Source of the DNA: an uncultured Ruminococcus sp.
Lineage (GTDB): Bacteria; Bacillota; Clostridia; Oscillospirales; Acutalibacteraceae
Assembly: GCA_902766305.1 (NCBI GenBank)
Contig: CACXDE010000189.1
Location: 1-18,860, forward strand
DNA length: 18,860 nucleotides
Direction: 5' to 3'
In this document: piece after piece, positions 2,294 through 17,212 of the stretch
Layout: each line of letters opens with the position of its first letter
Position numbering within the stretch: the first letter of the stretch is position 1
Position numbers and translations under genes: made by a program
Notes under the pieces: generated by a model
Databases searched by the model: none
What the model was told of the DNA's origin: nothing
The model's input: the letters and a program-made list of their open reading frames with translations, nothing else

Positions 2294-2305
2294 TTTTCCT
2301 TCTCC

Positions 2306-3358
2306 TTAATTTTTTATCTTACCCGCCTTTAATCTGCCTTCAAGCTTGTCAAATCCTTTATCGACAAGCCCCATAAGAAAATGAAAGACAAGTGATATAA
2401 CAATAGTAACTGCAAAACAGACCGCAAAATACAGCATCTTTGGCTGGATCACATCTTTTAGTATAATCATAGGCAGTCTCTGCAAAATATATATTTCAAA
2501 CACATATTTGCCGAAAAACGCCAGAACAGGATTTCCTATCTTAAGCTTCATAGTAAGCAAAAGCATACAAATCACAAAGCCAATTACCAATATCTCTAAA
2601 CTAAAAATATTATACCTTGTCCGGTCTCCGGCAAAAACCAGATAAGCCGCTGAAATAACTGCCAAAACATACAGCCACTGATGCTTTTTCATAGACGCAA
2701 ACAGTTTTGAACCAACAACAGCATAGATCATTCCCATAGGATATACTATACACGTACTGTACCAGTATCTCTTGCGCAGGAAGCTGAGAGCAACTACAAA
2801 AGCAATTGTCAGCAGAAATACCGCAACAACTGTCGGACCGGGCCTCCGTCTGCATATTTTCGCACCTATAAACGTCAGTACATACAGAACTAATGTATCA
2901 AAGATATACCAGTTGCTATTGCCCAGTCCGTCCCAGCCTATGAACGAAAGCAGGATCTTCCCGGCTGTCAGCTCATTTCCCATACAGATATTTGCAATAA
3001 GATACAAAAGCACCGCCGTCATGAAATGAAATAAAAGCCTTGGAAAACGTCTCAGTAAAATCGAATTTACATACTTATCGCCTTTCTTCATTATGGAAAG
3101 CATAATACCGTATCCGGAATAAAACAAGAAAGAAACAACTATCAGCTGGTTCATCCATACGCTGAAATCCTTATACGTATAGTCAAATGCTTCATACTCT
3201 ATATACTGTTCAAAATGCCGCATGAATACTAAAAGAACAAAAAAACCGTTTATACATACAGTCTGTTCTCTGGATATATAGTCATCATTAAAGCTTTTGA
3301 AATGAGGCTTCATGCCTATTATAAAAAAAACGAAGGCAGCTAAAAGAACAATACTCAT
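2306..3358 (-). CDS. Membrane acyltransferase (acyltransferase family 3-like)
   Basis: A 350-residue integral membrane protein with roughly nine or ten hydrophobic segments, resembling the acyltransferase-3 (OafA/YrhL) family. These enzymes transfer acyl groups to extracytoplasmic glycans, lipids or peptides. Supporting features are the INGFFVLLVFMRHFEQY segment (36-52), where the family carries its conserved His (here His48); SGYG (81-84); the basic RRFPRLLF stretch (103-110); and a later GNSNWYIF segment before a membrane helix. The family assignment rests on this general pattern, so it is moderate, and the acceptor substrate cannot be read from the sequence. The stop lies 12 bp before metK and the start 2 bp after the cyclophilin stop, so it is probably co-transcribed and translationally coupled. 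Confidence 0.7.
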   Translation of the reverse strand: MSIVLLAAFVFFIIGMKPHFKSFNDDYISREQTVCINGFFVLLVFMRHFEQYIEYEAFDYTYKDFSVWMNQLIVVSFLFYSGYGIMLSIMKKGDKYVNSILLRRFPRLLFHFMTAVLLYLIANICMGNELTAGKILLSFIGWDGLGNSNWYIFDTLVLYVLTFIGAKICRRRPGPTVVAVFLLTIAFVVALSFLRKRYWYSTCIVYPMGMIYAVVGSKLFASMKKHQWLYVLAVISAAYLVFAGDRTRYNIFSLEILVIGFVICMLLLTMKLKIGNPVLAFFGKYVFEIYILQRLPMIILKDVIQPKMLYFAVCFAVTIVISLVFHFLMGLVDKGFDKLEGRLKAGKIKN

Positions 3359-3360
3359 AT

Positions 3361-3882
3361 TCAGAATTTCTCCGGCTCGGGGTAGCTCACTCCGAAAGTC
3401 TCAACCGTAACCTTCTTCATAATCTGCGGGTCGAGCGGCTTGTCTGCCATATCGGTATCGCACTCTGCGATCTTATTGACAACATCCATTCCTTCTGTTA
3501 CTTTTCCGAAAGCTGCATACTGACCATCAAGATGAGGCGCAGCCTTGTGCATTATAAAGAACTGTGATCCGGCAGAGTTAGGCATCATAGCTCTTGCCAT
3601 TGAAAGAACTCCCTCTGTATGCTTGAGATCATTTCTGAAGCCGTTTCCGGCAAATTCACCCCTTATGTGATAACCGGGTCCGCCTGTACCATTTCCCACA
3701 GGACATCCGCCCTGAAGCATGAAATTGTAGATTACTCTGTGAAAAGCAAGTCCGTTATAAAAGCCCTTCTGTATCAGGCTTATAAAGTTTCTTACTGTAT
3801 TAGGTGCTGTCTGAGGATAAAGCTCTGCCTTTATAACATCACCGTTTTCCATCTCAATAGTTACAACAGGATTCTGTGCCAT
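3361..3882 (-). CDS. Cyclophilin-type peptidyl-prolyl cis-trans isomerase
   Basis: A 173-residue single-domain cyclophilin, an enzyme that interconverts cis and trans prolyl bonds and so helps protein folding. FHRVIYNFMLQGG (47-59) holds the catalytic Arg49 and the Phe54, Met55 and Gln57 of the active site. SAGSQFFI (103-110) and HLDGQYAAFG (117-126) complete the fold signature. There is no signal peptide or lipobox, so it is cytosolic. The ATG at 3882 is preceded by CGGAGG with 8-nt spacing. It is the first gene of the unit with the acyltransferase and metK, under the promoter at 3958-3986. Confidence 0.95.
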   Translation of the reverse strand: MAQNPVVTIEMENGDVIKAELYPQTAPNTVRNFISLIQKGFYNGLAFHRVIYNFMLQGGCPVGNGTGGPGYHIRGEFAGNGFRNDLKHTEGVLSMARAMMPNSAGSQFFIMHKAAPHLDGQYAAFGKVTEGMDVVNKIAECDTDMADKPLDPQIMKKVTVETFGVSYPEPEKF

Positions 3883-3957
3883 TTCAAATACCTCCGATTT
3901 TGTTTATCGCTGTTAACCCAAACTGTCTTATGAAAATGATATCAACAGCCAACTAAT

Positions 3958-3986
3958 ATAATATCCTATTTGTGTCAGATATTCAA
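3958..3986 (-). promoter_or_regulatory. Promoter of the cyclophilin-acyltransferase-metK unit
   Basis: On the minus strand, TTGAAT (3981-3986), a 17-nt spacer and TATTAT (3958-3963). The -35 box matches at 4 of 6 positions and the -10 box at 5 of 6. It lies about 75 nt before the cyclophilin ATG. The short leader shows no riboswitch-like fold. Confidence 0.55.
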
Positions 3987-4055
3987 CACAGATTCAAACT
4001 TTCAGCATTTTGTACAATTATTTCTTAGTTATATTGGTAAGCTGATACATAGCGT

Positions 4056-5927
4056 TTATCCCAATTCCTTATGATAGGTTTCAAGTATTCTTCTTGAATA
4101 CTCAGAGAATGACATATTGCTCCAATCGTTAGTCGAATATCCCCCGTCAAGACTGAACGCAAAATTCAATTCCTGATTTGCAAAATATATTCCGGGAGTT
4201 ACAACAGACTGATAATTATTCCTTGCAGTTTCATACACGGAATTAAATCTGTTGACATCAAGTCTGCCCGAATCTGCAATGCGTTTCAGCGCCGCTTCAT
4301 ATTCATCAGTAAGAAAAGCATTGCTGCTGAGAATTGCGCTTTTTATAAGCGGATTAGCCTGAGAATTTCCCGCGCCCTCTGCCCTGCCTGAATAAGGAGA
4401 AGGCTTTGTCATGCCTGTTTTGTCAGGATTATAGCCGTATGTCAGACCTAAGGTTCTGTCATTATCATACGGAATGAAGATTGCTTTTCCGTTGTCTTTT
4501 CTGAAATATATGTAATGATTATTGTAATTGTTCCTGATATCGTCAGGATCACCGGCAAAATAGCTTGCTGCCAGAAAGTTTGCAAAATACTCTGTATCCA
4601 CAACACTGTCAATGCTTGCCCTGTCGGTTCTTGAGTTAATTACATTCAACATATTGACAAGAGCCGAATGATTTGAAGATTTTTCATTTGTCTTTAGATT
4701 GAAATTGAATTTTGCACCAGTATCCTTGTCATCCACACCGAAAGTAACCTGATTTGCAACGTAGTTACACGGCTTCATAGTCCAACCGCATTTATACAGG
4801 TCTCCTCCAAGAGCAGATTCCGGCAGGTGCTTTTCAAGAAACAGTTCGTCAACAGGCTCATATATCTTCAAAACTCCAAAATTTGCTCCGTTCATTACAA
4901 ACTGTGTCAGCCCTATCTTCTGCGCTAAGACGCCGTTTTCGCTGAACATTTCACTTGCATATATTTCCCTTATCTGAGTATCGTCATAGCAGCTGTTCCA
5001 CTTTATATCCATTTTTTTAAGTGTCGCAAACCGGCGGTTTTTACGCTGTTTTCTTTCCTCGCTGCTTGCCCATACCTTTGCCTCGCTGCCATAGTAATCC
5101 TTATCATCAAAGGTTTCATTGAAGCTTATCTTATAGTGCGATATGTTCTGTGCACCGCTTTGATCAAACACAGGAGTCAGGGACATATTGCCCTTAAGCC
5201 GTATGCCGACTTCCTTTATAGTATAGCTTTGTCCGTTTACAGTTACAGTCATATCCGCCTTGCGGTATATCGGCGATTTGGATTTTTTTCTTTTGTATGT
5301 ATAATAGTCGTTCTGGAGTTTATCAAGCTCTGTTTTTGGTATATCAATACTTACAGTTACTCTGTTTGCAAGATTAAACAGACTGTTAAACAGATTTATA
5401 TCACCAACGCTGCTGTTATCAACAGCCGGCTGAGGTGCTGGCTGAGGCGAAGGGTTTACCGAAGGAGCGGAAGCTGTCTGAGTACCTGTCTGTGAAGCAG
5501 GCTTGCTTGACTGAACTGCTGACGCTTGGTTTTTTGATGCCTGTGCAGTGCTGCTGCTTTGCTGAGCATTACTTTTAGCAGTCTGTACTGATGAAGTATT
5601 TTTCTTAGATACCTCCGGTGAAGCTTTCGATGATGTTTTTGATGAAGCCTCAGACCGCTTGCTGCTGACATTCGACGATTGCTGAGAAGAGGACAAAAGT
5701 TCAGAAGAACCGTCTGACGAAACAGTGCTATTTGTTATAACATCACCGCTTGTTTCCGCAGCGGAAGTATTTTCATTCTCGGCAGTCTCTGTTTCTTCAG
5801 ATGAGATCTGTTCAATTTGAGAAGCCGGTAATTCTTCATCTTTGCTTCCGGATTCATTTGTACAGGCCGGAAGCATGCTTAATATCAGTAAAAACACTAC
5901 AGCCAATAATAATCTGCGTTTATTCAT
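4056..5927 (-). CDS. CotH-family (spore-coat kinase-like) lipoprotein
   Basis: A 623-residue exported lipoprotein. A basic N-terminus and hydrophobic stretch lead to the lipobox LPAC, with the lipidated Cys22. Residues 23-172 are a Ser/Ala/Gln/Lys-rich low-complexity linker that would span the wall. Residues about 185-520 match the CotH fold: IRLKGN (242-247), NFGVLKIYEPVDE (349-361), a probable catalytic loop with Asp460-Asp463 and Asn466-Asn470, and metal-binding IPYDND (485-490). The founding member, Bacillus CotH, phosphorylates spore-coat proteins; in Clostridia, CotH proteins also occur on the cell surface. Activity here is inferred. The ATG has an extended GAGGTGAT ribosome site. The gene lies 94 bp downstream of the transglutaminase-like gene, with a hairpin between. 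Confidence 0.85.
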   Translation of the reverse strand: MNKRRLLLAVVFLLILSMLPACTNESGSKDEELPASQIEQISSEETETAENENTSAAETSGDVITNSTVSSDGSSELLSSSQQSSNVSSKRSEASSKTSSKASPEVSKKNTSSVQTAKSNAQQSSSTAQASKNQASAVQSSKPASQTGTQTASAPSVNPSPQPAPQPAVDNSSVGDINLFNSLFNLANRVTVSIDIPKTELDKLQNDYYTYKRKKSKSPIYRKADMTVTVNGQSYTIKEVGIRLKGNMSLTPVFDQSGAQNISHYKISFNETFDDKDYYGSEAKVWASSEERKQRKNRRFATLKKMDIKWNSCYDDTQIREIYASEMFSENGVLAQKIGLTQFVMNGANFGVLKIYEPVDELFLEKHLPESALGGDLYKCGWTMKPCNYVANQVTFGVDDKDTGAKFNFNLKTNEKSSNHSALVNMLNVINSRTDRASIDSVVDTEYFANFLAASYFAGDPDDIRNNYNNHYIYFRKDNGKAIFIPYDNDRTLGLTYGYNPDKTGMTKPSPYSGRAEGAGNSQANPLIKSAILSSNAFLTDEYEAALKRIADSGRLDVNRFNSVYETARNNYQSVVTPGIYFANQELNFAFSLDGGYSTNDWSNMSFSEYSRRILETYHKELG

Positions 5928-5961
5928 ACATTATCACCTCATATGCAGTTGCTGTAAAATA

Positions 5962-5995
5962 ATTTCCTGCTCTGAAACGCATCACAGCAGGAAAT
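5962..5995 (-). terminator. Intercistronic hairpin between transglutaminase-like gene and cotH-like gene
   Basis: ATTTCCTGCT (5962-5971) and AGCAGGAAAT (5986-5995) make a perfect 10-bp stem with a 14-nt loop. On the minus strand it is followed only by TATTTTAC, so termination would be partial. It may lower CotH-like expression relative to the upstream gene or stabilise the upstream mRNA. Confidence 0.5.
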
Positions 5996-6021
5996 AAATC
6001 TTCGTTTAATTCTATATTCCA

Positions 6022-7365
6022 TCAGGACTCAGGATCAGAAAGTTTTATCCTCACCGTCCGTCGTCTTGCATTCTCAGTAAGATGGCAGTGACTTGTATCA
6101 AAAACCGCCTTACCGACATAATTGTTTACCCTCTCAATGCAGTCATAAAACCTGTGTCCGCCGTTTTTAAGCATAACATTCATAAAATCATCATAGCGCA
6201 CATCATCTTCTATCAGAATATACAACAGATGTTCTCCTTTAGTATACAGATCATATACCTTGTCGGCGATATCATCATCCGCCTTATCGTCAAGACCGCT
6301 CACAACAACACCTTCACGGTAATAGTAATTCATATCGACCGAATCACATTCCGGAATGAAGAAGTTATAGCTTGAATCTTCACTGACGGCTGATTCATCT
6401 ATTATCGGATCAGGAGTATGATCTGTACCCATAGACTCCGCTGTAAGATTAAAGAAGTCATAGCCATGATCTGTTTCATCTGAATCATCCCATGTGCTGT
6501 CAAGCTGATACCACTTATCACCAAGATTGACAAGATTCCACATATGACGTTCGGGAACATTTTCTTCTCCCTCGCCCATTCCCCTGATCGTCACACTGTC
6601 AACACCGGCAAGCCTCAGCAGAAGCATCATAGCTTTGGAATAGCCCTCGCATACCGCCTGTCCTTCAACGACTGCGCCGTATGCGCTGAAATACTGCCAT
6701 CCATCGTCAATGGAATCAACACCCTTCTTATAACTGCATTTATCAAGGAGCTTATCATGAAGAATCTTCTCACGTTCATATTCTCCGTCAGCGGCAGTTA
6801 TACCGGACAGCATTTCACTGAGAGCCTCATTAAATGACTTGATATACAGCTCGCACTGATTACCGGACAAAACCGAGTAGCATTCAACATAGGTTTTATT
6901 TTTACCGCTGTGATACCCAAAATAATTGTCTATCCAGAAAACCTCAGGATGATCACAAAGATAGGCATTAATAGCAATGTTGATATCATCGGAAGAAAAT
7001 TCCGCACCCTCAACCTCTACTGTCTTTGTTTTGTATCTCCCGTCATCTGTCATTTCGTCAGAGATCCTGTAAACCGACTCATCAAGCTTTTCATAAAGAA
7101 CCCTGAGATTTTCATTGACCAGAGCGTCATAGGCGTGGGCTGAAAAATCAACATCCTTCTGCGAAGTATCAGCAGACGCTCCCCCTATCCTGCTGTATTC
7201 CCTTGAACTTTCCTGTTTTGACGGTATAAAAGGTATATGTACGGAACTATTTTCATTTTGAGAACCGGACAGCTCCTGATAAGCGTACATAGCTACAGCG
7301 CCTGCAAGCACCGCCAGAGACACAAACAATAAAATTACAAAAAATCCTGATAAGGTTTTCTTCAT
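6022..7365 (-). CDS. Membrane-anchored transglutaminase-like protein
   Basis: A 447-residue protein from the ATG at 7365, chosen because AAGGA lies about 10 nt upstream and a normal signal anchor follows directly. An in-frame ATG at 7416 would add 17 residues ahead of the signal. Residues 7-30 form one membrane segment; the rest is probably outside the cell. The Cys-His-Asp triad of the transglutaminase/protease superfamily is intact: Cys239 in GQAVCEGYS, His274 in ERHMWN and Asp289 in YQLDSTWDD. The preceding SAYGAVVEG (227-235) is typical of bacterial members. Such proteins can cross-link, cleave or only bind peptides, and the substrate is unknown. The C-terminal 130 residues match no domain I recognise. 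It is adjacent to the CotH-like gene. Confidence 0.85.
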   Translation of the reverse strand: MKKTLSGFFVILLFVSLAVLAGAVAMYAYQELSGSQNENSSVHIPFIPSKQESSREYSRIGGASADTSQKDVDFSAHAYDALVNENLRVLYEKLDESVYRISDEMTDDGRYKTKTVEVEGAEFSSDDINIAINAYLCDHPEVFWIDNYFGYHSGKNKTYVECYSVLSGNQCELYIKSFNEALSEMLSGITAADGEYEREKILHDKLLDKCSYKKGVDSIDDGWQYFSAYGAVVEGQAVCEGYSKAMMLLLRLAGVDSVTIRGMGEGEENVPERHMWNLVNLGDKWYQLDSTWDDSDETDHGYDFFNLTAESMGTDHTPDPIIDESAVSEDSSYNFFIPECDSVDMNYYYREGVVVSGLDDKADDDIADKVYDLYTKGEHLLYILIEDDVRYDDFMNVMLKNGGHRFYDCIERVNNYVGKAVFDTSHCHLTENARRRTVRIKLSDPES

Positions 7366-7482
7366 AAACAATTCATCCTTATTCTGTAAACGGCTTACTA
7401 CAGTCTCCCCCCGCACTTTATACTGTGCAAAGACACACCGGAAATCACCGGCATTATTTCAGGATCAGCATTCACACTGCTT

Positions 7483-8055
7483 TCAGGCATTTCTTCTTTG
7501 ACGTGAAGAGGGTCTGCGGGTGCCGCTGCTGCCGCCCTGGGTCTGATAATTCTTAAGTCCCTCTCTTGTCTTTTTCAGATCGGCAAGATTCTTTGAAAGT
7601 TCATCATCAGCCTTTTTCATAAGACCGTCAAGGTACGCATTCGCTGCACCCTTTATCTCAGCGGCCTGTTTATCAGCCTGAGCGATAATATCGTTTGCAC
7701 GTGTCTGTGCACGAAGAACTATCTCATTCTGCTGAACAAGTGCCTCTGCCTTTTCCTCAGCCTGCTTTACAGTGAACTTTGCTTTCTCCTCAGCCTGCTG
7801 AATCATATTCTTTGATCTGTCCTCAGCTTCCTGAACAATATCCTCTGCCTCGCTTTTTGATTTATTGATAATATTTGTTCTGTCAGCAGCGATGTTTTTT
7901 GCCTGTTTGAGTTCGATCGGAAGATTTGATCTCATATCATCTATGATCTCTTTAACTCTTTCAGTATTGATAACAGTTTTTCCTCCGCTGAGCGGTATAG
8001 TAAAAGCCTCGTCCACCAATTCCTGAAGTTCATCAATAAGCGCTTCAATTTTCAT
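7483..8055 (-). CDS. Coiled-coil protein (DivIVA/ATP-synthase b-like), function unknown
   Basis: A 190-residue soluble protein dominated by a continuous charged helix, about residues 50-165, rich in Ala, Glu, Lys and Gln with repeated AEEKA-type motifs. This resembles DivIVA-like scaffolds and the b subunit of ATP synthase, and homologues are often given vague ATPase-like names. No membrane segment or nucleotide-binding motif is present. The N-terminal 45 residues look globular, and the C-terminal tail is Gly/Ser/Arg-rich and basic. The ATG at 8055 has an AAGGAG ribosome site at 9 nt. It lies 107 bp downstream of coaD in the same orientation. A structural or membrane-curvature role is possible but not shown. 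Confidence 0.75.
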   Translation of the reverse strand: MKIEALIDELQELVDEAFTIPLSGGKTVINTERVKEIIDDMRSNLPIELKQAKNIAADRTNIINKSKSEAEDIVQEAEDRSKNMIQQAEEKAKFTVKQAEEKAEALVQQNEIVLRAQTRANDIIAQADKQAAEIKGAANAYLDGLMKKADDELSKNLADLKKTREGLKNYQTQGGSSGTRRPSSRQRRNA

Positions 8056-8090
8056 CTCTGTCTTCTCCTTCTCAATTATTTTTACTTACT

Positions 8091-8153
8091 GTAAAATTGA
8101 TAATCATTTATTTTACGCGGAGACGACTGTAATTAAACTCAGTTCCTCTCCGC
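8091..8153 (-). other. Paired intercistronic dyads between coaD and the coiled-coil gene
   Basis: Two adjacent inverted repeats lie in the 107-bp gap: GTAAAAT (8091-8097) with ATTTTAC (8110-8116), and GCGGAGA (8117-8123) with TCTCCGC (8147-8153). Both stems are perfect 7-mers. Read on the minus strand, the GC stem is followed by the AT stem without a clean T run. This is more likely an mRNA processing or stability feature than a full terminator. Confidence 0.4.
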
Positions 8154-8162
8154 CGGCATTCA

Positions 8163-8648
8163 TCATTTCATTTTATTGATCCTCATAAGTATCTCATCAT
8201 GCACACATTCCGGAACAAAAGGAGATATATCCCCTCCCAAAAGTCCCACCTGCTTTACTATGCTTGAGCTAAGGTACATATTTTCAGAGCTTGTAGTAAG
8301 AAATACCGTTTCAACAGTATCATTAAGCTTGCTGTTAGTAAGCGCCATCTGAAACTCATACTCAAAGTCGGATACAGCTCTCAGACCCTTTACCAACACC
8401 TTTGCATTATTCTTAGCCGCAAAATCCACAAGCAGTCCGTCAAACCCTGCTATCTCAACATTAGGCACATCACCTACTGTTTTCCTCAGCAGATCAATTC
8501 TTTCCTCAATTGTGAACCACGGCTTTTTCTGTACGTTAACAAGTACGCCGACTATAACCTTATCGAATATGCTTGCCGCCCTTTTAATAATATCTATATG
8601 ACCGTATGTCACCGGATCAAAGCTTCCCGGACATATCGCTGTTTTCAT
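8163..8648 (-). CDS. coaD: Phosphopantetheine adenylyltransferase
   Basis: Cytosolic enzyme of coenzyme A synthesis that joins 4'-phosphopantetheine and ATP to give dephospho-CoA. The 161 residues match the family length. The N-terminal nucleotidyl-transfer motif is GSFDPVTYGH (8-17), with the TxGH histidine at 17. The C-terminal half holds the ATP-binding YLSSSIVKQV motif. The ATG has AGGAG 8 nt upstream. It starts 18 bp after the rsmD stop; the rsmD-coaD order is a familiar pairing in Gram-positive bacteria, so co-transcription is likely. Confidence 0.98.
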   Translation of the reverse strand: MKTAICPGSFDPVTYGHIDIIKRAASIFDKVIVGVLVNVQKKPWFTIEERIDLLRKTVGDVPNVEIAGFDGLLVDFAAKNNAKVLVKGLRAVSDFEYEFQMALTNSKLNDTVETVFLTTSSENMYLSSSIVKQVGLLGGDISPFVPECVHDEILMRINKMK

Positions 8649-8666
8649 TGTGACACTCCTTTTTTC

Positions 8667-9215
8667 TCAAATGCCCTGACTTTCAGAACAAACATATAAG
8701 CTGACTGTTATTGTACCGTATTTATATTTCTTTTTCAGAATGAATTTCCCCGATCTCTCAGGCAGTGTCTCATCCGACGGATGTTCACATATAATCAGCT
8801 TATCAGTAATACGGGTACAAAGCTCAAACGCACTCTGAACAAGACCGGTCTTATACGGCGGATCAAGGAAAGCAATATCAAATCTCTCCTCAGTACCAGA
8901 AATATAAGAAATTGTATCTCTGCAAACAGTGACTGCTTTATCTGCACCAAAGCCGCACAAAGAAATATTCTTTCTTATGATCTCCATAGACCGGCGGCTG
9001 CTGTCAACAAAAAATGCCTTATCTGCTCCTCTGCTCAGTGCTTCTATACCCATCTGTCCAGAGCCTGCAAATGCGTCAAGAAAACGGCAGCCCTCTATAT
9101 CAAATTGTATAATACTGAAAACAGATTCCTTTACAGTATCCGTAGTAGGTCTTACATCATTACCGGACGGAGAATAAAGCTTTCTCCCCCGTGCAGAACC
9201 TGAAATAACTCTCAT
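8667..9215 (-). CDS. rsmD: 16S rRNA (guanine-966 N2) methyltransferase
   Basis: SAM-dependent methyltransferase modifying G966 of 16S rRNA in the small ribosomal subunit. From the ATG at 9215 it is 182 residues and begins MRVISGSARGRKL, the usual RsmD start. An in-frame GTG at 9254 would add 13 residues, but it lies within about 10 nt of the predicted transcription start, so the ATG is preferred; AAAGGAC sits about 12 nt upstream of it. The SAM-binding loop DAFAGSGQMGIEALSRGA begins at residue 47, and the catalytic DPPY is at 118-121. It heads the leftward run containing coaD. Confidence 0.95.
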   Translation of the reverse strand: MRVISGSARGRKLYSPSGNDVRPTTDTVKESVFSIIQFDIEGCRFLDAFAGSGQMGIEALSRGADKAFFVDSSRRSMEIIRKNISLCGFGADKAVTVCRDTISYISGTEERFDIAFLDPPYKTGLVQSAFELCTRITDKLIICEHPSDETLPERSGKFILKKKYKYGTITVSLYVCSESQGI

Positions 9216-9269
9216 ATAATAAACTTGTCCTTTTTCATAATCGCCGGAAGTCACAAACTCCCATATATA

Positions 9270-9298
9270 ATTATCCGGGAAAAACCTTTAAATGTCAA
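9270..9298 (-). promoter_or_regulatory. Promoter of the rsmD-coaD unit
   Basis: On the minus strand, a perfect TTGACA (9293-9298), a 17-nt spacer and GATAAT (9270-9275, 5 of 6). The expected start near 9263 gives a leader of about 48 nt to the ATG at 9215. Confidence 0.7.
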
Positions 9299-9364
9299 TA
9301 CTATTTTTACAATTTTTATAAAATACAAACAAATTTTTCATTTCTGCATATTATAACAGAATAG

Positions 9365-9383
9365 GACATAATTTTTCTATGTC
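9365..9383. promoter_or_regulatory. Inverted repeat in the divergent rsmD/glutamine synthetase region
   Basis: GACATA (9365-9370) and TATGTC (9378-9383) form a perfect 6-bp dyad with a 7-bp AT-rich centre, between the two divergent promoters. Operator-like spacing suggests a dimeric regulator, but the site does not fit the GlnR consensus TGTNA-N7-TNACA. The remainder of 9299-9460 is AT-rich, with nothing else recognised. Confidence 0.3.
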
Positions 9384-9464
9384 AATAATCCATTAAAATA
9401 AATAAACATATTTCATAAACTGATATTCATTCAACAAACATTTTCCGGCTGACTAAGTTGTTTA

Positions 9465-9493
9465 TTGACAAAACAATTATACAGGTTTATAAT
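9465..9493 (+). promoter_or_regulatory. Consensus promoter of the glutamine synthetase gene
   Basis: TTGACA (9465-9470), a 17-bp spacer and TATAAT (9488-9493): both hexamers and the spacing are ideal. The start is expected near 9500, about 160 nt before the coding ATG and immediately ahead of the attenuator. Such a strong promoter fits with control after initiation. Confidence 0.9.
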
Positions 9494-9502
9494 GCCCTTG
9501 TA

Positions 9503-9550
9503 ACAGCAACGGCGCTGTAGATCGGGCGGATAGATCTACTGCGCCTTTTT
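9503..9550 (+). promoter_or_regulatory. Leader attenuator: hexaloop antiterminator overlapping an intrinsic terminator
   Basis: The terminator stem pairs GGCGCTGTAGATC (9511-9523) with GATCTACTGCGCC (9533-9545), with one T-T mismatch and a 9-nt loop, followed by TTTTT (9546-9550). An earlier alternative hairpin, ACAGC (9503-9507) with GCTGT (9514-9518), encloses the hexaloop AACGGC and uses bases of the terminator's 5' arm, so the two structures exclude each other. The loop has A at position 1 and G at position 4, as in RNA targets of ANTAR antiterminator proteins, which control glutamine synthetase genes in some clostridia. Known targets have two such hairpins; only one is visible here. Terminator confidence is high, regulator identity is inference. 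Confidence 0.75.
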
Positions 9551-9574
9551 GTTTATATTTTTATAAATACTCAC

Positions 9575-9633
9575 GGTCATACTCTGAACGACGTTTATCC
9601 GCTCAGATTTACAGCATATACTCAGATGTGACC
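9575..9633 (+). other. Imperfect stem in the distal leader of glutamine synthetase
   Basis: GGTCA (9575-9579) pairs with TGACC (9629-9633) and, after a small internal loop, TCTGA (9583-9587) with TCAGA (9622-9626). It lies after the attenuator and before the GGAGAG ribosome site at 9651. Its role is unknown and it could be a chance fold. Confidence 0.3.
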
Positions 9634-9661
9634 TGATTCTAATTTTGAATGGAGAGTTTTT

Positions 9662-11752
9662 ATGGTTAACGTACCTGAAATGTTCGGATCAGCTGTATTC
9701 AATGATGAATCCATGAAAAAATATCTTCCAAAGGGCACATATAAAGCACTGAAGAAGACTATCGAGGACGGAAAGCCTCTTGATCTCAACATAGCAAATG
9801 TTGTTGCTCATGCTATGAAGGAATGGGCTATTGAAAACGGTGCTACACACTACACACACTGGTTCCAGCCTATGACAGGAATCACTGCGGAAAAGCATGA
9901 CTCATTTATATCCCCGACTGCCGGCGGCGGTGTTATCATGGAGTTTTCCGGCAAGGAGCTTATAAAGGGCGAGCCTGACGCTTCAAGCTTCCCCTCAGGC
10001 GGTATAAGGGCAACATTTGAAGCAAGAGGATACACTGCATGGGATCCGACCTCCTATGCCTTCATAAAGGATGGTTCACTGTGCATACCGACAGCATTCT
10101 GTTCATATACAGGTGAAGCACTTGACAAAAAGACACCCCTTCTCCGTTCAATGGAGTGCATCAATACTCAGGCACTCAGGATTCTTCGTGCTTTTGGTGA
10201 TAACGAAACCACTCACGTAACCACAACAGTCGGTCCGGAGCAGGAATATTTCCTTGTAGATAAAAAAGTATTCGACAAAAGAAAAGACCTGATATACTGC
10301 GGAAGAACTCTCTTTGGCGCAAGACCTCCAAAGGGTCAGGAGCTTGACGATCACTATTTCGGTTCAATAAAGCCAAGAGTATCAGCATTTATGAAAGATC
10401 TTGATGAAGAGCTGTGGAAATACGGTATACTTGCAAAAACAAAGCATAACGAGGTAGCGCCTGCCCAGCATGAGCTTGCTCCCATATTTGATACGACAAA
10501 TATAGCTACAGATCACAACCAGCTGACTATGGAGATCATGAAAAAGGTTGCGGAAAAGCATGGTCTTGTATGCCTTTTACACGAAAAACCCTTTGCCGGT
10601 GTAAACGGATCAGGAAAGCACAACAACTGGTCGATGTCTACAAACACAGGCAAGAATCTTCTTGAACCCACCAAAACGCCAAGACAGAATATACAGTTCC
10701 TTACCTTCCTTGCGGCTGTTATAAGAGCAGTCGACGAAAATCAGGATCTTCTCAGAATATCAGTTGCAAGCGCGGGCAATGATCACAGACTGGGCGGAAA
10801 TGAAGCGCCTCCTGCTATCATTTCAATTTACCTCGGCGATGACCTTACAGAGGTTCTTCATTCCGTTCTCAGCGGAGAGGACTATACCGGCGAAGGCAAG
10901 CCAATCATGGAAACTACAGCAGAGGTTCTGCCGAACTTCACAAAGGATACGTCAGACAGAAACCGTACCTCGCCATTTGCATTCACAGGAAACAAGTTTG
11001 AGTTCAGAATGGTAGGCTCTTCTGAAAACATTGCCTGCGCCAACTTCATGATAAATACAATGGTAGCAGATGTACTTGAAGATTTTGCAGATCAGCTTGA
11101 AAAAGCTGATGATGTCAATGCCGCTGCTGAAAAGCTTATCAAAAAGACCATAAAACAGCATAAGCGCATCATTTTCAACGGCAATAACTATTCCGATGAA
11201 TGGGTAGAGGAAGCCAAAAGAAGAGGTCTTCTGAATCTTCGCACACTTCCGGAAGCACTCCCCCTGTATACAGACGAAAAGAATATCAGGCTTTTCACAA
11301 AGCACAATGTTCTTACAGAGATCGAACTCAGATCAAGATGTGAGGTTCTTCTCGAAAAGTACTCGAAGATCATTAACATTGAAGCTCTGACTGCTCTCGA
11401 CATGGCGAAAAAGGATATCATGCCGGCAGTAACTAATTATCTCAGGGAGCTTGCTCAGACGGCAAGCCTTATAAAGTCTGTTGATCCTGAGCTTGTTCCG
11501 GCAGCGCAGACAGAGCTTATGAAGAAGCTGACAAACCTGCTTAACTGCTTTGCAAAGAAGATTGATGTGCTTGACAAGGCTGTAGTGGGTGCAAAGGATG
11601 TAACGGACGTTGCAGAAAACGCTATGTATTTCAAAGACAATGTTCTTTCCGCTATGCAGGAGCTTCGTGCAGTAGCTGACGAAATGGAAGCAAATATGTC
11701 AGCAAAAGCCTGGCCTTATCCTTCATACGGTACAATGCTTTTCAGCGTATAA
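9662..11752 (+). CDS. glnN: Glutamine synthetase, type III
   Basis: Cytosolic ATP-dependent enzyme converting glutamate and ammonia to glutamine, the main ammonium-assimilation step. At 696 residues it has type III (GlnN) length rather than the ~450 of type I. Active-site motifs in order are EQEYFLVD from Glu193, [13 protein letters not shown] (262-274), [10 protein letters not shown] from Asn315 and [15 protein letters not shown] from Arg435. A helical C-terminal extension is typical of GSIII. The ATG has GGAGAG 8 nt upstream. It is the only plus-strand gene here and is monocistronic, between its own promoter/attenuator and the terminator at 11762-11797. Such enzymes are often just called glnA. 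No GlnB or ANTAR regulator gene is in the window. Confidence 0.97.
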
Positions 11753-11761
11753 AAAATAATT

Positions 11762-11797
11762 GGCTGCCCCGGCAAATAGCTGAGGCAGTCCTTTTTT
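11762..11797 (+). terminator. Intrinsic terminator of glutamine synthetase
   Basis: GGCTGCC (11762-11768) pairs with GGCAGTC (11784-11790) including one G-U. After one mismatch, CGGC pairs with GCTG around an AAATA loop. T6 follows at 11792-11797. On the minus strand an A/T stretch also follows the hairpin, so it may serve the convergent whiA transcript as well. Confidence 0.85.
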
Positions 11798-11824
11798 CAA
11801 CAATTTCGTTTATAATAATATTTC

Positions 11825-11845
11825 CACTTTCAACTTTCAACATTC
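11825..11845 (+). repeat. Short heptanucleotide array downstream of whiA
   Basis: Three 7-bp units, CACTTTC, AACTTTC and AACATTC, lie between the terminator and the whiA stop. They resemble the AACTGAC/AACTTAC units at 977-1018 and 18678-18719. Confidence 0.5.
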
Positions 11846-11850
11846 CAAAT

Positions 11851-12765
11851 TTATATTTTGTCCGCTATCTCCATTATCCGCGCAAGTCTGTGATTTACGC
11901 CTGAACGGCTTATAGGAGTACTCAGCGCCTCTCCAAGCTCACGAAGATTATATTCGGGATTATCAAGACGCATCTGCGCAAGCTCTCTCAGATCAGGGGT
12001 AAGACTGTCAAGTCCGCATTCCCTGCTTATCTTCTCTATCGCCGCTATCTGTTTTGCAGAAGCAAGGGCTGTTTTATTGCTGTTTGCTGTCTCGGAATTG
12101 ATCTGTCTGTTGACCTTGTTCCGGACAGATTTATATATTTTCTGCTGCATTATTTCCAATGCAGCCATAGGCGCACCGATATATGTCAGAAGATCAGCTA
12201 TTGCGTCACTCTCTTTTATATATACTACATAGCTTCCCTTTCGGCGGACTGTTTTGGGAGTACCTAACAGCTCAGTCTCGCTTATTATCCTTGCAAGATC
12301 CTTTGCAAGATTCATATGCGGCACAGCAAATTCAAGATGATAATCCTTTCCGGGATCGCTTACATTTCCGCACACAAGAAAAGCACCTCTCAGAAAATAC
12401 GGAATCGTACCTTCCTCATCAATATTGGAGCGGTTTATACGAAGACTAAGCGACATAGGGTCATGACCAAAATGATCAAATATCCTTTTGCAGTCACCGC
12501 TGTCAGGTATCGACAAACACCAGCTCTTCCCTTCACTGCCCTTCCTAGTCAGCATAACCGATATATCTGATATTACCGACAGATCAGAGGAAACCTTTTC
12601 GCTGTACAGCAGCGCAGCCTCACGGCTCTCCGTTGTAAATGATATTGCAGAAGGTGAAAACACCTTTGAAAAAATCAGCATCCCATATATCAATGCCTCT
12701 CCGTCCTCTGCCCTTGTAACGGGAGCTGTACACAATTCTTTTTTAGTCTCTTTTGAAAACGACAT
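11851..12765 (-). CDS. whiA: DNA-binding protein WhiA
   Basis: A WhiA regulator, 304 residues from the ATG at 12765: an N-terminal LAGLIDADG-like domain fused to a C-terminal helix-turn-helix. In Firmicutes it influences division and wall metabolism; in actinomycetes it controls sporulation. Family features are the MSFSKETKKEL start, FLRGAFLVCGNVSDP in the middle, RQINSETANSNKT before the DNA-binding half and SGVNHRLARI near the end. The frame stays open to an ATG at 12783 inside a 7-bp repeat tract, adding six residues; the family's usual MSF start argues for 12765. Neither start has a recognisable Shine-Dalgarno sequence, unlike most genes here. It is last in the hprK-murB-rapZ-whiA order, 74 bp after rapZ. 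Confidence 0.95.
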   Translation of the reverse strand: MSFSKETKKELCTAPVTRAEDGEALIYGMLIFSKVFSPSAISFTTESREAALLYSEKVSSDLSVISDISVMLTRKGSEGKSWCLSIPDSGDCKRIFDHFGHDPMSLSLRINRSNIDEEGTIPYFLRGAFLVCGNVSDPGKDYHLEFAVPHMNLAKDLARIISETELLGTPKTVRRKGSYVVYIKESDAIADLLTYIGAPMAALEIMQQKIYKSVRNKVNRQINSETANSNKTALASAKQIAAIEKISRECGLDSLTPDLRELAQMRLDNPEYNLRELGEALSTPISRSGVNHRLARIMEIADKI

Positions 12766-12769
12766 AACT

Positions 12770-12801
12770 AATTCATAATTCATAATTCATAATTCATAAT
12801 T
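12770..12801 (+). repeat. Four-copy AATTCAT tandem repeat in the whiA leader
   Basis: Four exact copies of AATTCAT (12770-12797) plus AATT. On the minus strand each copy carries an ATG. Only the one at 12783 is in frame with whiA; those at 12776, 12790 and 12797 run into stops within a few codons. The tract ends 4 bp before the preferred whiA start and occupies the usual ribosome-site position. Confidence 0.9.
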
Positions 12802-12821
12802 GAAATAGTATACTATCAATT
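12798..12821. repeat. Palindrome in the rapZ-whiA gap
   Basis: ATAGTATACTAT (12805-12816) is a perfect 12-bp palindrome, extended by AATTG (12798-12802) and CAATT (12817-12821) around a two-base bulge. It abuts the AATTCAT array. It could be an operator, an RNA hairpin or the remnant of a repeat element. Confidence 0.4.
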
Positions 12822-12839
12822 ATTGTTCAGAAACAGAAG

Positions 12840-13700
12840 TTATCCCTTGGAAATATCACGGTGGTGTACAATAGTACGCTGACCGCCTTCAAGCAAATGG
12901 TTATAAAGCACTCTTGTCAGCGTAACTGAACGGTGTTTCCCTCCGGTACAGCCTATAGCTATAACAAGCTGGCTCTTACCTTCGCTTCTGTACAGCGGCA
13001 AAGAAAAATCCACAAGATCAAGCATCCTCTGCGCATATCCCTTTGACTGGTCATACTGCATAACATAATCAAAAACACAGGCATCAAGACCTGTATGCGG
13101 CTTGAGTTCAGGAACATAAAAGGGATTCGGCAGACACCTGACATCGAAAACAAGATCCGCCTCCGCCGGAAGACCGTACTTGAAACCGAACGAAATACAG
13201 TTTACCGTTAGCCCCAAGGATATATTGCCTAAAAACAATGATGTAATTCTTTCACGCAGCTGAGTTGTAGATAGAAGAGATGTATCAATTACATAATCCG
13301 CCCTCGCCTTTACCGGCATAAGCAGCTCTCTTTCCGTCATGACAGCAGACTCCGTAGAGGCTGAGTTTTCACTAAGCGGATGCTTTCTTCTTGTTTCCTT
13401 GAAGCGCCTGAGAAGAACGTCATCCCTTGCGTCAAGAAAAAGTATCTTATATTTCTTTCCGGCAGCCTTCAGCTTATCAAGAGACAAAAACAGATCGTCA
13501 AACACATCGCCGGCTCTTATATCTGTCACTACTGCTATCTTTTTCATATGCTCGTCGCCGGATTTTTCACACAATTCGTAAAATATCGACACAAGCATCG
13601 GAGGAATATTGTCCACACAATAGTATCCGATATCCTCCATATTTTTCATTGCTACAGACTTCCCTGCGCCTGAAAGCCCCGTTATGATTATAAATTCCAT
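12840..13700 (-). CDS. rapZ: RapZ/YvcJ-family nucleotide-binding protein
   Basis: A 286-residue P-loop protein of the RapZ/YvcJ family. The enterobacterial member is an adaptor that delivers small RNAs to RNase E and senses glucosamine-6-phosphate; YvcJ of Bacillus binds and hydrolyses nucleotides. The Walker A motif GLSGAGKS is at 8-15 and the conserved GCTGGKHRSV lies in the C-terminal domain. The start is the ATG at 13700, giving the usual MEFIIITG, with GGTGA about 6 nt upstream. An in-frame GTG at 13709 overlaps that ribosome site and is unlikely. It sits between murB and whiA, a conserved Firmicutes order linking wall-precursor synthesis with regulation. Confidence 0.95.
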   Translation of the reverse strand: MEFIIITGLSGAGKSVAMKNMEDIGYYCVDNIPPMLVSIFYELCEKSGDEHMKKIAVVTDIRAGDVFDDLFLSLDKLKAAGKKYKILFLDARDDVLLRRFKETRRKHPLSENSASTESAVMTERELLMPVKARADYVIDTSLLSTTQLRERITSLFLGNISLGLTVNCISFGFKYGLPAEADLVFDVRCLPNPFYVPELKPHTGLDACVFDYVMQYDQSKGYAQRMLDLVDFSLPLYRSEGKSQLVIAIGCTGGKHRSVTLTRVLYNHLLEGGQRTIVHHRDISKG

Positions 13701-13740
13701 CCTTCTCACCTGCCGCTGAAAGCATTACTTCAATAACATA

Positions 13741-14649
13741 TCATTTGCCAACAAACTTAACCTCACATTCCAGCTCTACACCGGTCTTTTCTTTTACAAC
13801 ACTCTGTACCTTACTGATAAGTGCTTTAACATCCTCTGCCTTTGCCTTACCGTTATTTACAATAAATCCGCTGTGCTTTTCGCTCACCTGTGCATCGCCC
13901 ACTGACACACCCTTAAGTCCGCAGTTTTCAATAAGCGCCGCCGCATAATTATCCTTCGGACGCTTGAACACGCTTCCTGCACTCGGACGGTTCAGCGGCT
14001 GTTTCTTTTTGCGCTTATCCATCGTATCCTGCATGAGGTAGAATATTTCATTCTTGTTTTTCGGTGAAAGCTTTACACACACGTCAAGTATTGTAAGCTT
14101 TTTATCGCTGTAAAAGCTGTGTCTGTACGAAAAATCGTGCATATCACCAATCATTTCACGGATATTGCTGTCCTCGTCAAGATAATGTGACGACACAACT
14201 ATATCCTTCATCTCTCCGCCGTAAGCCCCGGCATTCATATACACTGCTCCGCCCACAGAACCGGGTATGCCCCACGCAAATTCTGCACCGCCAAGACCCT
14301 TATTTTTTGCAAACAGACAAAGCTTCGCAAGACTTACACCAGCGCCGCATTTTATAATATTGTCCCCGTCAAGTGCTATCTCCTCAAAATCGCCGCCCAA
14401 TTTTATAACTATTCCGTCCATGCCAGCGTCACTGACAAGAAGATTTGAACCAAGACCAATAATAAAATATTCAGTATTTTCCTCTTTGCAAAGAGCTATT
14501 ATTTTTTTCAGTGACTCAATAGTATTAACTTCACAGAAGCAGTCTGTTTTTCCGCCTATGCGAAAGCTCGTATGAAGACTCATCGGCTCGTCAAAATACG
14601 CATTGCAGTCCTCGTTGATTATCAGGTTTTTCAGTTTTTCGCTTATCAT
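13741..14649 (-). CDS. murB: UDP-N-acetylenolpyruvoylglucosamine reductase
   Basis: Cytosolic FAD enzyme making UDP-N-acetylmuramate, the second committed step of peptidoglycan precursor synthesis. The ATG at 14649 gives 302 residues and has a strong GAGGAG ribosome site 6 nt upstream. A longer frame from TTG at 14676, overlapping the hprK stop, is not needed. FAD-binding motifs are IIGLGSNLLVSD and GIPGSVGGAVYMNAGAYGGE. PSAGSVFKRP carries the catalytic Ser, and HSGFIVN is near the end. It lies 23 bp after hprK and 40 bp before rapZ. Confidence 0.97.
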   Translation of the reverse strand: MISEKLKNLIINEDCNAYFDEPMSLHTSFRIGGKTDCFCEVNTIESLKKIIALCKEENTEYFIIGLGSNLLVSDAGMDGIVIKLGGDFEEIALDGDNIIKCGAGVSLAKLCLFAKNKGLGGAEFAWGIPGSVGGAVYMNAGAYGGEMKDIVVSSHYLDEDSNIREMIGDMHDFSYRHSFYSDKKLTILDVCVKLSPKNKNEIFYLMQDTMDKRKKKQPLNRPSAGSVFKRPKDNYAAALIENCGLKGVSVGDAQVSEKHSGFIVNNGKAKAEDVKALISKVQSVVKEKTGVELECEVKFVGK

Positions 14650-14672
14650 ATCTGTCTCCTCACGGTATTCAC

Positions 14673-15635
14673 TCAAAATTCTATCAGTTTCACATCATTA
14701 GCTTCTTCCTCCGGATATTCAAGTCCCAATGCGGAGAAAAGCTCTCTTGCGGCATTATATCCCATCTTTCTCTGACGGTTATTCATAGCCGCTACTTCAA
14801 TAATAACAGCTAAGTTACGTCCGGGCTTTACAGGTATAGTAACTATCGGTATCTGATTGCCCAGTATTTCCGTCATTTCACTGTTCATGCCCATTCTGTC
14901 ATAAACCTTTTTATTATCCCAAAGCTCAAGGTTTATTACCATGTCGATTTTTTCCGTCAGCTTAACGGAACCCATACCGAATATCCTTCTCGCGTTAATA
15001 ATACCTATGCCTCTCAGTTCAATAAAATGACGTATATTTTCCGGTGCTGAACCAATAAGCGAAGTATTTGATACCTTTCTTATCTCGACTGCATCGTCTG
15101 CTATAAGACGGTGTCCTCTTTTTATAAGCTCGATAGCAGTTTCACTTTTACCAACACCGCTGTCGCCTACCAGAAGCAGACCTTCACCGTAAACCTCCAC
15201 AAGAACGCCGTGCCTTGTAACTCTCGGCGCAAGTTCCAGATTCAGAAGATTTACAAGAGCCGCAGATACAGCTGATGTAGGCTCGGATGTACGAAGCACA
15301 GGTATCTTATATTTTTCTGCCGCAGACATAAGCTCTCCGTAAGGGATTATACCTCTCGTCACTATTATAGCCGGAGGATTGAGAGCAAATAGTCTGTTAA
15401 GAACATGAAACCTCTGTTCGGAACTGAAACGGTTAAGATAACTGTTCTCCGTATTTCCGAACAGAATTATTCTTGCATTGTCAAAGAAGTCAAGAAATCC
15501 TGTCAGTTCAAGACCGGGACGTGTAAGATCCTTTGAAAAGATCTTTATCTGATCCGGATCACCCGGCATATATGCCACATCAAGTCCCACATCTTTTATG
15601 ATCTTTGATAATTTGACCGAAAACTTGGTATCCAT
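14673..15635 (-). CDS. hprK: HPr kinase/phosphorylase
   Basis: Bifunctional enzyme that phosphorylates and dephosphorylates Ser46 of HPr, the central signal for carbon-catabolite control in Firmicutes. The 320 residues start at the ATG at 15635, which has AGGTG about 9 nt upstream; a GTG at 15647 would overlap that site. His142 (RHGVLVEV) is the conserved histidine before the Walker A GDSGVGKS (157-164). Asp180-Asp181 follow in LIADDAVE, and NARRIFGMGSVK (214-225) is the family signature. PGRNLAVIIEVAAMN near the C-terminus is also typical. It lies between the glycosyltransferase and murB in the same orientation. Confidence 0.97.
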   Translation of the reverse strand: MDTKFSVKLSKIIKDVGLDVAYMPGDPDQIKIFSKDLTRPGLELTGFLDFFDNARIILFGNTENSYLNRFSSEQRFHVLNRLFALNPPAIIVTRGIIPYGELMSAAEKYKIPVLRTSEPTSAVSAALVNLLNLELAPRVTRHGVLVEVYGEGLLLVGDSGVGKSETAIELIKRGHRLIADDAVEIRKVSNTSLIGSAPENIRHFIELRGIGIINARRIFGMGSVKLTEKIDMVINLELWDNKKVYDRMGMNSEMTEILGNQIPIVTIPVKPGRNLAVIIEVAAMNNRQRKMGYNAARELFSALGLEYPEEEANDVKLIEF

Positions 15636-15692
15636 AATACTACACACCTGCTTTCCCGGGGAGCATCATGTCAGACGCCAATCCCCTGATAT

Positions 15693-16910
15693 TTATTCCA
15701 TAAGGTCTTCATCGTCCAGACCGGCAAGCGTTTCCTTGGGATGATGAGCCTGTTTAGCCTGATCGTAGACCTTTTCTATACATTTTGCCATATACGTACA
15801 GTTAAGATTCTTTAAGCTGTGTCTTATTGCATAGCGCAGATTTTCCTTTTCACCCTCAGAAAAAAACGACAGCTTTTTCAGATATTTTACAAATTCTCCA
15901 TCACTCTTATATACAAATCCGTTCACATTATGCTTTATCATGCTGTACACATATTTTTCCTTGTCTTCCTTTACAAGGACCGGAAGACCGCAAGCCATCG
16001 CCTCAGCAAACGACATGGACAGAAGACCGTCATCCGCTGAACACACATATATATCGCACGAAGAAAGAATCCCCGGCATAATACTGTGCGCCAGCACTCC
16101 GGCGAAATGCACCCTGTCGTTAAGGTGATACTTATTGGCATGAGTGCGAAGATATTCGCTTTCCGTTCCTCCGCCGACTATCAGCAGATGGATATTATCC
16201 TCAAATCTCAGCCGTCTGCGGAAAATCTTCAGCATAAATTCTATATTCTTAGCCACTGTCAGATCACCGGCAAAAACAGCTACCGTTGCATTTCTTGGTA
16301 TCCCTAATTTTTTTCTGATCTTCATTTTTGCGGCATGATTTATCCTCTTATAATCAAATCGTTTTTTATCGGTAGCAACAGGCGTAAGGAGTACCTTTCT
16401 TTTTCTGTTTGCATTGCGGATAAACAAAGCCGCCCTTTTATTGGATGATGTAACAGCCTGACAATTATCAAGCATATCGCAAAAATGACGTTTCTCAAAA
16501 AATGTTTTTATCTTCCATATAAGCTTGGACTTATCAGAAAAACGATCAGCAAAATTATCTATAACAGAGAATACCACCGGACAGTGAAAACGGTCTGCAA
16601 TTGATATTCCCATATAACCTATTTTTGTATCAGTCAATATATGTACCATATCCGGCTCAAAGCCTCTTAGAAAACGTATGACATGAACATCATTTATATC
16701 CTTGCATTCATACCCGTACTTATTCCACGATCTTTTTGCCGGGCAGCGTATAATGCCTTTTTTTATTGAAGCTTCTGTAGTATGCAGTGAAGAAGTGACT
16801 ATTACCACCTTATGCCCTCTGCTTTCCAGACCCTTTCGGAGAACCTCCGCATAGGTGGATATTCCGCTTATGTAGGGAGTCAGCACCTCTGTAAAAATAA
16901 CTACATTCAT
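15693..16910 (-). CDS. GT4-family glycosyltransferase
   Basis: A 405-residue cytosolic or membrane-associated GT-B glycosyltransferase, family 4. The N-terminal half starts MNVVIFTEVLTPYISGISTY, the usual acceptor-domain opening. The C-terminal half has VAVFAGDLTVAKNIE and SMSFAEAMACGLPV, with the nucleotide-sugar-binding Glu303. Similar enzymes glucosylate diacylglycerol or build surface glycans; the acceptor is not identifiable. The usual first acid of the E-x7-E motif is replaced by Asp293/Asp294, with one extra residue. The tail is acidic (DDEDLME). GGTGAT lies about 5 nt before the ATG. It is 57 bp upstream of hprK and probably co-transcribed from the promoter at 16965-16992. Confidence 0.85.
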   Translation of the reverse strand: MNVVIFTEVLTPYISGISTYAEVLRKGLESRGHKVVIVTSSLHTTEASIKKGIIRCPAKRSWNKYGYECKDINDVHVIRFLRGFEPDMVHILTDTKIGYMGISIADRFHCPVVFSVIDNFADRFSDKSKLIWKIKTFFEKRHFCDMLDNCQAVTSSNKRAALFIRNANRKRKVLLTPVATDKKRFDYKRINHAAKMKIRKKLGIPRNATVAVFAGDLTVAKNIEFMLKIFRRRLRFEDNIHLLIVGGGTESEYLRTHANKYHLNDRVHFAGVLAHSIMPGILSSCDIYVCSADDGLLSMSFAEAMACGLPVLVKEDKEKYVYSMIKHNVNGFVYKSDGEFVKYLKKLSFFSEGEKENLRYAIRHSLKNLNCTYMAKCIEKVYDQAKQAHHPKETLAGLDDEDLME

Positions 16911-16964
16911 ATTCTATCACCAGTTAATCCAATTCATAATGATCCATAAACATCATTCTTTTAT

Positions 16965-16992
16965 ATTATAACATATTCTTTCAATATAACAA
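16965..16992 (-). promoter_or_regulatory. Promoter upstream of the glycosyltransferase-hprK cluster
   Basis: On the minus strand, TTGTTA (16987-16992, 4 of 6), a 16-nt spacer and a perfect TATAAT (16965-16970), about 54 nt before the ATG. This could drive the whole glycosyltransferase-hprK-murB-rapZ-whiA set. Confidence 0.6.
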
Positions 16993-17130
16993 ATACTTTT
17001 TTTATATTTTTTCACCGGCGAGCCGCGCCCGAAGGAAGTGCCCTTGGGGTGCTGAACCCTTAATGTAAGACTTTTTTCTTAACGAAGTTATCTGATGCTA
17101 ATATTCAATTAAATAATTAAAAAAGTTTCG

Positions 17131-17212
17131 CGCAAGCCTTTTCAAAGGCTTGCGGTTTCCAAAGGCAGAGCCTTTGAAAAGGGGTTCGGGGGGTGAAAGC
17201 CCCTGATTTCTG
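17131..17212 (-). terminator. Hairpin-rich repeat, probable azlCD terminator
   Basis: CGCAAGCCTTT (17131-17141) and AAAGGCTTGCG (17144-17154) form a perfect 11-bp inverted repeat. CAAAGGC/GCCTTTG (17160-17166 and 17170-17176) is a second stem, and a G/C-rich GGGGTGAAAGCCCC follows. Read on the minus strand downstream of azlD, the first stem is followed after six bases by a run of T6, so it can act as a terminator. The shared core AAGGC/GCCTT also lets the two stems pair with each other. The rest of the 349-bp gap (16911-17259) holds only the promoter at 16965-16992 and a GC-rich stretch at 17015-17060 of no obvious function. Confidence 0.6.

Follow-up and report, generated by a model that had tools for sequence, protein, structure and literature searches.

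The leader of the glutamine synthetase type III (GSIII) gene analyzed here is very probably a transcription attenuator that is controlled by the ANTAR protein of the cell through one hexaloop. The window, i.e. the whole 18,860-nucleotide stretch under analysis, covers positions 1-18860 of a contig in a draft genome of 2.38 Mb (496 contigs, 87.9% complete). In it, the GSIII gene (glnN, 696 aa; 9662-11752, plus strand) was recognized by the Pfam domains GSIII_N (2.5e-83) and Gln-synt_C-ter (3.7e-45), and a probable ribosome binding site, GGAGAG, was read from the sequence at 9651-9656 on the same strand. An earlier interpretation of this region as an ANTAR-type GSIII attenuator was supported by comparison of sequences, which revealed mutually exclusive structures, their conservation, invariant loop bases, a link to ANTAR proteins and the lack of a second hexaloop.

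The perfect consensus promoter claimed in the preliminary description was confirmed as a sigma-70 promoter at 9465-9493 on the plus strand, in which TTGACA (9465-9470) and TATAAT (9488-9493) are separated by a 17-nt spacer and match the consensus at 12 of 12 bases. The window contains two such exact promoters, the second on the minus strand, and 16 of 20,000 first-order random strings with the composition of the 407-nt intergenic region carried one on the plus strand. Across 70 leaders of the genus, the spacer measured 17 nt in 68 and 18 nt in two, and the gap between the -10 box and the hexaloop hairpin ranged from 9 to 13 nt (10 nt in 48 leaders; 9 nt in the window). Transcription is predicted from the -10 box to start at about 9500, 2-9 nt before the hairpin, which is thereby predicted to lie at the 5' end of the RNA. 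The earlier claim of a hexaloop at the very 5' end of the transcript fits this predicted start; its 5'-terminal status depends on the start site predicted from the -10 box and does not follow from the hairpin alone.

Close behind the promoter, a strong intrinsic terminator had been described, and it was located at 9511-9554 on the plus strand. Its arms, GGCGC-t-GTAGATC (9511-9523) and GATCTAC-t-GCGCC (9533-9545), enclose a 9-nt loop (9524-9532) and are followed by TTTTTGTTT, with the T-tract at 9546-9554. The fold of 9499-9553 had a free energy of -22.4 kcal/mol (z -3.9), and none of 200 shuffles was equally stable. A consensus scanner did not list this terminator because its 9-nt loop exceeds the scanner's limit of 8. 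The alternative pairing of the terminator 5' arm in a hairpin with the loop AACGGC, A at position 1 and G at position 4, was also found as described: the ANTAR-like hexaloop hairpin, a putative antiterminator recognized by sequence and folding, occupies 9503-9518 on the plus strand (-5.4 kcal/mol), with the arms ACAGC (9503-9507) and GCTGT (9514-9518) around the loop at 9508-9513. Thus, A1 is 9508, G4 is 9511 and the closing C-G pair is 9507/9514. Loop bases 4-6 and the 3' arm of this hairpin double as part of the terminator 5' arm, so that the two structures are mutually exclusive. When the transcript was folded at increasing lengths, the hexaloop persisted to 9540, stood side by side, back to back, with the apical terminator hairpin at 9536-9540, and gave way to the terminator from 9542-9546, shortly ahead of the T-tract.

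Taken alone, the hexaloop hairpin is unremarkable, and its weight lies in its position and conservation. The fold of 9499-9530 showed no gain in stability over shuffles (z 0.07), and the window holds six A..G hexaloops with at least 5 pairs, with most other letter pairs being commoner (range 3 to 15). The preliminary description had also proposed a covariance-model search of the leader against Rfam; no family matched there at E values up to 5, and Rfam over the whole window returned one tRNA and chance matches only. A long imperfect inverted repeat at 923-1016 on the minus strand gave rise to chance microRNA matches in that search.

From these structures, we infer the following course of events. 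RNA polymerase would start at about 9500, and the hairpin at 9503-9518 would fold first, at the 5' end of the RNA. If it is left unheld, the terminator apex (GTAGATC/GATCTAC) would form next and zip downward, GCGCC would displace the 3' arm of the hexaloop hairpin, and the T-tract would end transcription at a length of about 50 nt. An active ANTAR protein, in contrast, would hold the hexaloop through A1, G4 and the C-G closing pair and prevent the strand exchange, so that polymerase would continue into GSIII. Binding of the ANTAR protein to the hairpin, the direction of control and the start site are all inferred in this scheme, as is the signal, which is taken to be nitrogen shortage in view of the target genes, GSIII and, in some relatives, asnA.

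Conservation in close relatives, on which the preliminary description had staked its reading, was borne out. A GSIII match was present in 63 of 64 genus genomes, and two paralogues could be distinguished by their identity to the GSIII of the window over the stretches compared (A, about 80-100%; B, 54-74%). The 70 genus leaders, 30 of them fetched as loci and 40 by place, comprise 50 from paralogue A and 20 from paralogue B. All 70 kept the hexaloop; 64 fit the strict pattern, and the other six deviate solely at the outer stem pair. An overlapping terminator was detected in 68 by script, and in the remaining two (L047 and L058) it was seen by eye around a long insert. Four paralogue-B leaders, including that of the window's own genome (L041, L046, L047 and L058), carry a structured insert of about 70-130 nt in the apical loop of the terminator, which places the hexaloop and the terminator 3' arm far apart.

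Pair counts were made on an alignment of 61 of the 70 leaders, which omitted L007, L041, L046, L047 and L058 for irregular or long-insert terminators and the near-duplicates L052, L068, L077 and L079. In the terminator, 97.0% of cells were paired, 9 of 13 pairs showed two-sided changes, and the covariation score was reached by 0 of 500 shuffles. In the hexaloop stem, 99.3% were paired and 2 of 5 pairs showed two-sided change; this count was equaled in 33 of 500 shuffles and the covariation score in none of 500. GC was replaced by AU on both sides of this stem in 7 of 61 sequences, and its covariation amounts mainly to one switch in paralogue B, in a stem whose 3' arm is also used by the terminator.

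Within the loop, A1, A2 and G4 were found in 70 of 70 leaders; the search pattern demanded A1, and no leader remained unmatched. Position 3 varied (A 52, G 9, T 7, C 2), as did positions 5 (G 67, A 3) and 6 (C 54, T 16). These bases bear on the possibility that the leader is an attenuator or plain terminator unrelated to ANTAR, in which A1 and A2 belong to an A-tract facing the U-tract and G4 is simply a terminator pair. The A's of the loop can indeed pair with the T-tract in many leaders, and G4 is a member of a terminator base pair. However, position 3, which lies closest to the terminator stem, is the one that varies while positions 1 and 2 are fixed, and G4 is invariant while its partner varies (GC 53, GU 7, other 1), although G-U or A-U would preserve the terminator. 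Moreover, the A..G pair far exceeds the 15 other letter pairs and follows the presence of ANTAR proteins, as detailed below. We therefore consider this explanation very unlikely.

Evidence for control by an ANTAR protein comes from the association of the motif with such proteins. A genome search for an ANTAR regulator, as the preliminary description had suggested, found one ANTAR domain protein in the window's own genome (1.8e-15), encoded at L002:398-1000. One match each was obtained in 58 of 64 genus genomes, including all 26 with a completeness of 90% or more and a contamination of 5% or less, and ANTAR proteins were found in 91 of 150 family genomes. For 129 family GSIII leaders among the matches listed (truncated and some distant places omitted), a strict test asked for an A1/G4 hexaloop with at least 4 pairs and an overlapping terminator. 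Among these, the test was positive in 49 of 93 leaders from ANTAR-bearing genomes vs 3 of 36 from genomes without a detected ANTAR protein (Fisher p 2e-6, kinship among leaders ignored), and the other 15 loop letter pairs reached at most 8 of 93 in the former group; 44 of the 93 failed it. A covariance model, R1, built from 57 of 60 stretches (L189, L193 and L210 excluded), scored at least 20 bits in 53 of 72 ANTAR-bearing genomes vs 3 of 36 others, with 40 of the leaders belonging to its training set. With training leaders removed, the figures were 15 of 53 leaders vs 3 of 36 (p 0.03), a modest excess among leaders that are mostly failures of the strict test. Three genomes without a detected ANTAR protein carry the motif, and absence of the protein from draft genomes may reflect incompleteness. 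In one such case, L148 (genome G069), a 35.1-bit hexaloop leader match occurs in a 96% complete genome with no detected ANTAR protein, and the motif may be a relict, or the ANTAR gene may lie in a gap.

The genes themselves are often close: among the matches listed, ANTAR and GSIII genes lie at most 15 kb apart (311-11,678 nt) in 40 of the 79 family genomes where both are listed. Ten such regions were picked for this closeness, with some overlap with the training set, and each gave a match of at least 23 bits: eight lay immediately ahead of GSIII, one ahead of asnA-GSIII (L274) and one about 0.84 kb ahead of glnA (L276). The annotated regions (L270-L279) show a GS-GOGAT cluster, with GSIII divergent from genes that match parts of glutamate synthase, followed by a GSI-type glnA, ANTAR and carA; this annotation reports best matches, several of them under NCBI's cut-offs. 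An ammonium transporter adjoins GSIII in L271, and asnA does so in L274.

The ANTAR domain of the window's own genome matched Pfam at 4.9e-15, and its receiver domain matched weakly. In an alignment of 31 genus ANTAR proteins with EutV, the RNA contacts K149, E160, M172 and R175 were retained in all 31, and K147 was replaced by R in the 31. Five of 11 contact positions were changed: Y164H, R168E and N173D in 31 of 31, R142I in L100, and R177 mostly to T. By eye, AmiR likewise has H in the place of Y164. None of the 31 has the receiver acidic pair, and 8 have the phospho-acceptor Asp, whose place is taken by N, F or H in the other 23 (the protein of the window's own genome has N). Because of these two losses, phosphate signaling appears unlikely for most genus ANTAR proteins; the phosphorylatable receiver that marks an ANTAR response regulator of the EutV type was not found in them. 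Among 31 genus loci, 11 have GSI (glnA) next to the ANTAR gene; the flanks available measured about 1.5 kb, some of them ended by contig ends.

Two papers that bear on the number of hexaloops, PMC7496416 and PMC8934654, we take to be Goodson et al. 2020 and Walshe et al. 2022, respectively. The dual-hexaloop motif was defined by Ramesh et al. 2012 (PMC3369931), who showed the importance of both loops and of the linker and predicted ANTAR leaders before glutamine and glutamate synthases; a commentary (PMC3369936) names glutamine synthetase. According to PMC7496416, selection of ANTAR-bound RNA yielded the C-G closing pair, A1 and G4, and NasR bound one hairpin at ~12 uM vs 1 uM for two, about tenfold worse. 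PMC8934654 reports a similar affinity of EutV for one and two hexaloops and urges a search for single ones. According to PMC3369931 and PMC8934654, antitermination requires both hexaloops, and the actinobacterial survey of PMC8164766 retained dual motifs only.

The leader of the window has a single visible hexaloop, as the preliminary description had noted: 9255-9661 contains no other A..G hexaloop with at least 4 pairs. What had been offered there as an oddity, a reduced single-hairpin form, turned out to be the rule in the group. Upstream, no hexaloop (P1) was found within 25 nt of any of 56 hairpins, 55 of them from outside the genus; downstream, 1 of 50 paralogue-A leaders and 4 of 71 hairpins of other genera had a second A..G hexaloop, which is the level of other letter pairs. 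Of 80 loci from named records, 1 had two AANG hexaloops within 20 nt, apparently by chance. We found no linker of defined length, since there is no second hexaloop. These counts weigh against an ordinary dual-hexaloop ANTAR target in which the second hexaloop escapes notice because of a non-canonical stem or an upstream start, as do the 2-9 nt between the predicted start and the hairpin. This explanation would agree with the ANTAR targets described in the published accounts consulted (PMC3369931, PMC8164766 and PMC7496416), all of which have two hairpins, and with paralogue B, in which a second A..G hexaloop was detected by script at the terminator apex in 14 of 20 leaders (13 with a conserved AANG apex), directly abutting the first hairpin. 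We judge it highly improbable. A control with canonical eut dual hexaloops detected none in 8 EutB loci, and the power of the second-hexaloop test therefore rests on paralogue B. In other genera, whole single-hexaloop/terminator modules occur in tandem before GSIII, about 50-80 nt apart and each with its own terminator, for example three in L210 and two in L212, L217 and L221; L182, L319 and L344 likewise have two or three in a row.

Attenuation through one hexaloop shares with EutV/eutP, NasR/nasF and AmiR/amiE, as presented in PMC3369931, the A1/G4 hexaloop (here in 70 of 70 leaders), the C-G closing pair, overlap with and exclusion of a terminator, an ANTAR protein in the genome and downstream nitrogen genes. 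Unlike these systems as presented there, the GSIII leader has one hexaloop rather than two tandem hairpins, no linker of defined length, and a hairpin at the predicted 5' end without a preceding recruiting hairpin. Since the published ANTAR motif is defined as dual, we filed the leader, by this analogy, outside the dual-hexaloop family as defined, as ANTAR-like in mechanism. The minimal binding unit of EutV in PMC8934654 is one hexaloop, as would be required here; the same paper expects single hexaloops where polymerase timing is irrelevant, whereas those of GSIII overlap terminators. Compared by description, the BglG/SacY RAT antiterminators in the discussion of PMC3369931 similarly consist of one protein-held hairpin overlapping a terminator, but involve another protein family and an RNA of 29-30 nt.

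Searches with the covariance model suggest that GSIII is the only demonstrable target in the genus, because 93 of the 94 matches in 64 genus genomes (E up to 4.2e-4) are found on the GSIII strand, 51-252 nt ahead of the gene, and, in the window's own genome, the two GSIII leaders (5.2e-6 each) are followed by a next match at 0.185. The 94th match (L250) has a complete hairpin and terminator at a contig end, and the GSIII of that genome starts 142 nt into another contig. Genuine targets could escape the model under ~28 bits. Among 25 weaker candidates (19 regions and 6 loci of the own genome), 23 had no overlapping terminator by script, and L245 and L265 had one and lacked an A..G hexaloop by eye; we therefore claim no further target. 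Two weak matches, L252 and L255 (genomes G025 and G009), precede similar lipoprotein-like genes, with a -10 box and a 5-nt-loop hairpin and no overlapping terminator.

The placement of the strong genus matches also bears on a reading compatible with attenuation, in which the terminated RNA of about 50 nt is itself the product and acts as a small RNA that sequesters the ANTAR protein, read-through being secondary. A consensus promoter would yield abundant short RNA with a predicted binding site, and EutX, as described in PMC8934654, is an ANTAR-sequestering RNA with an extra single hexaloop. However, 93 of the 94 strong matches in the genus place the motif immediately ahead of GSIII, free-standing copies were not found in this search, and with GSIII as nearly the sole target there is little to sequester the protein from. 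This role as the main function is scarcely probable.

Beyond the genus, a match of at least 20 bits upstream of GSIII was counted by hand in 53 of the 80 loci of named records, some of whose contigs are shared with other sets. These include Clostridium methylpentosum DSM 5476, Herbinix hemicellulosilytica, Merdimmobilis hominis, Mediterraneibacter agrestimuris, Claveliimonas monacensis and Blautia schinkii, and ANTAR proteins were present in 10 of 10 queried genomes of named records with a leader match. In C. methylpentosum, the leader lies at L286:346-385, ahead of asnA-glnN. In drafts labeled Treponema or Spirochaetaceae (L324, L300 and L316), GSIII is 65-67% identical to that of the window, with a weak leader match in L324; these genes may reflect inter-phylum transfer or misbinned contigs.

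In the open-access literature, to which our survey was confined, with subscription papers outside its scope, we found no description of a single-hexaloop attenuator before GSIII. In the accepted model, termination is prevented only if an ANTAR dimer contacts two hexaloops, and the strength of single-hexaloop binding is disputed between PMC7496416 and PMC8934654. Searches based on the dual motif would miss single-hexaloop switches, of which there are seemingly hundreds on a central ammonia-assimilation enzyme of dominant gut and rumen bacteria. Since these switches are about 50 nt long and easily rebuilt in vitro, the purpose of the second hairpin should be directly testable. More tentatively, and with some doubt on our part, they might form a widespread class of single-hexaloop antiterminators in gut and rumen Clostridia, served by ANTAR proteins with degenerate receivers that act without phosphate and are gated by glutamine synthetase or a partner encoded nearby. 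If this is true, the RNA switch of one glutamine synthetase would be informed of the nitrogen state by another glutamine synthetase.
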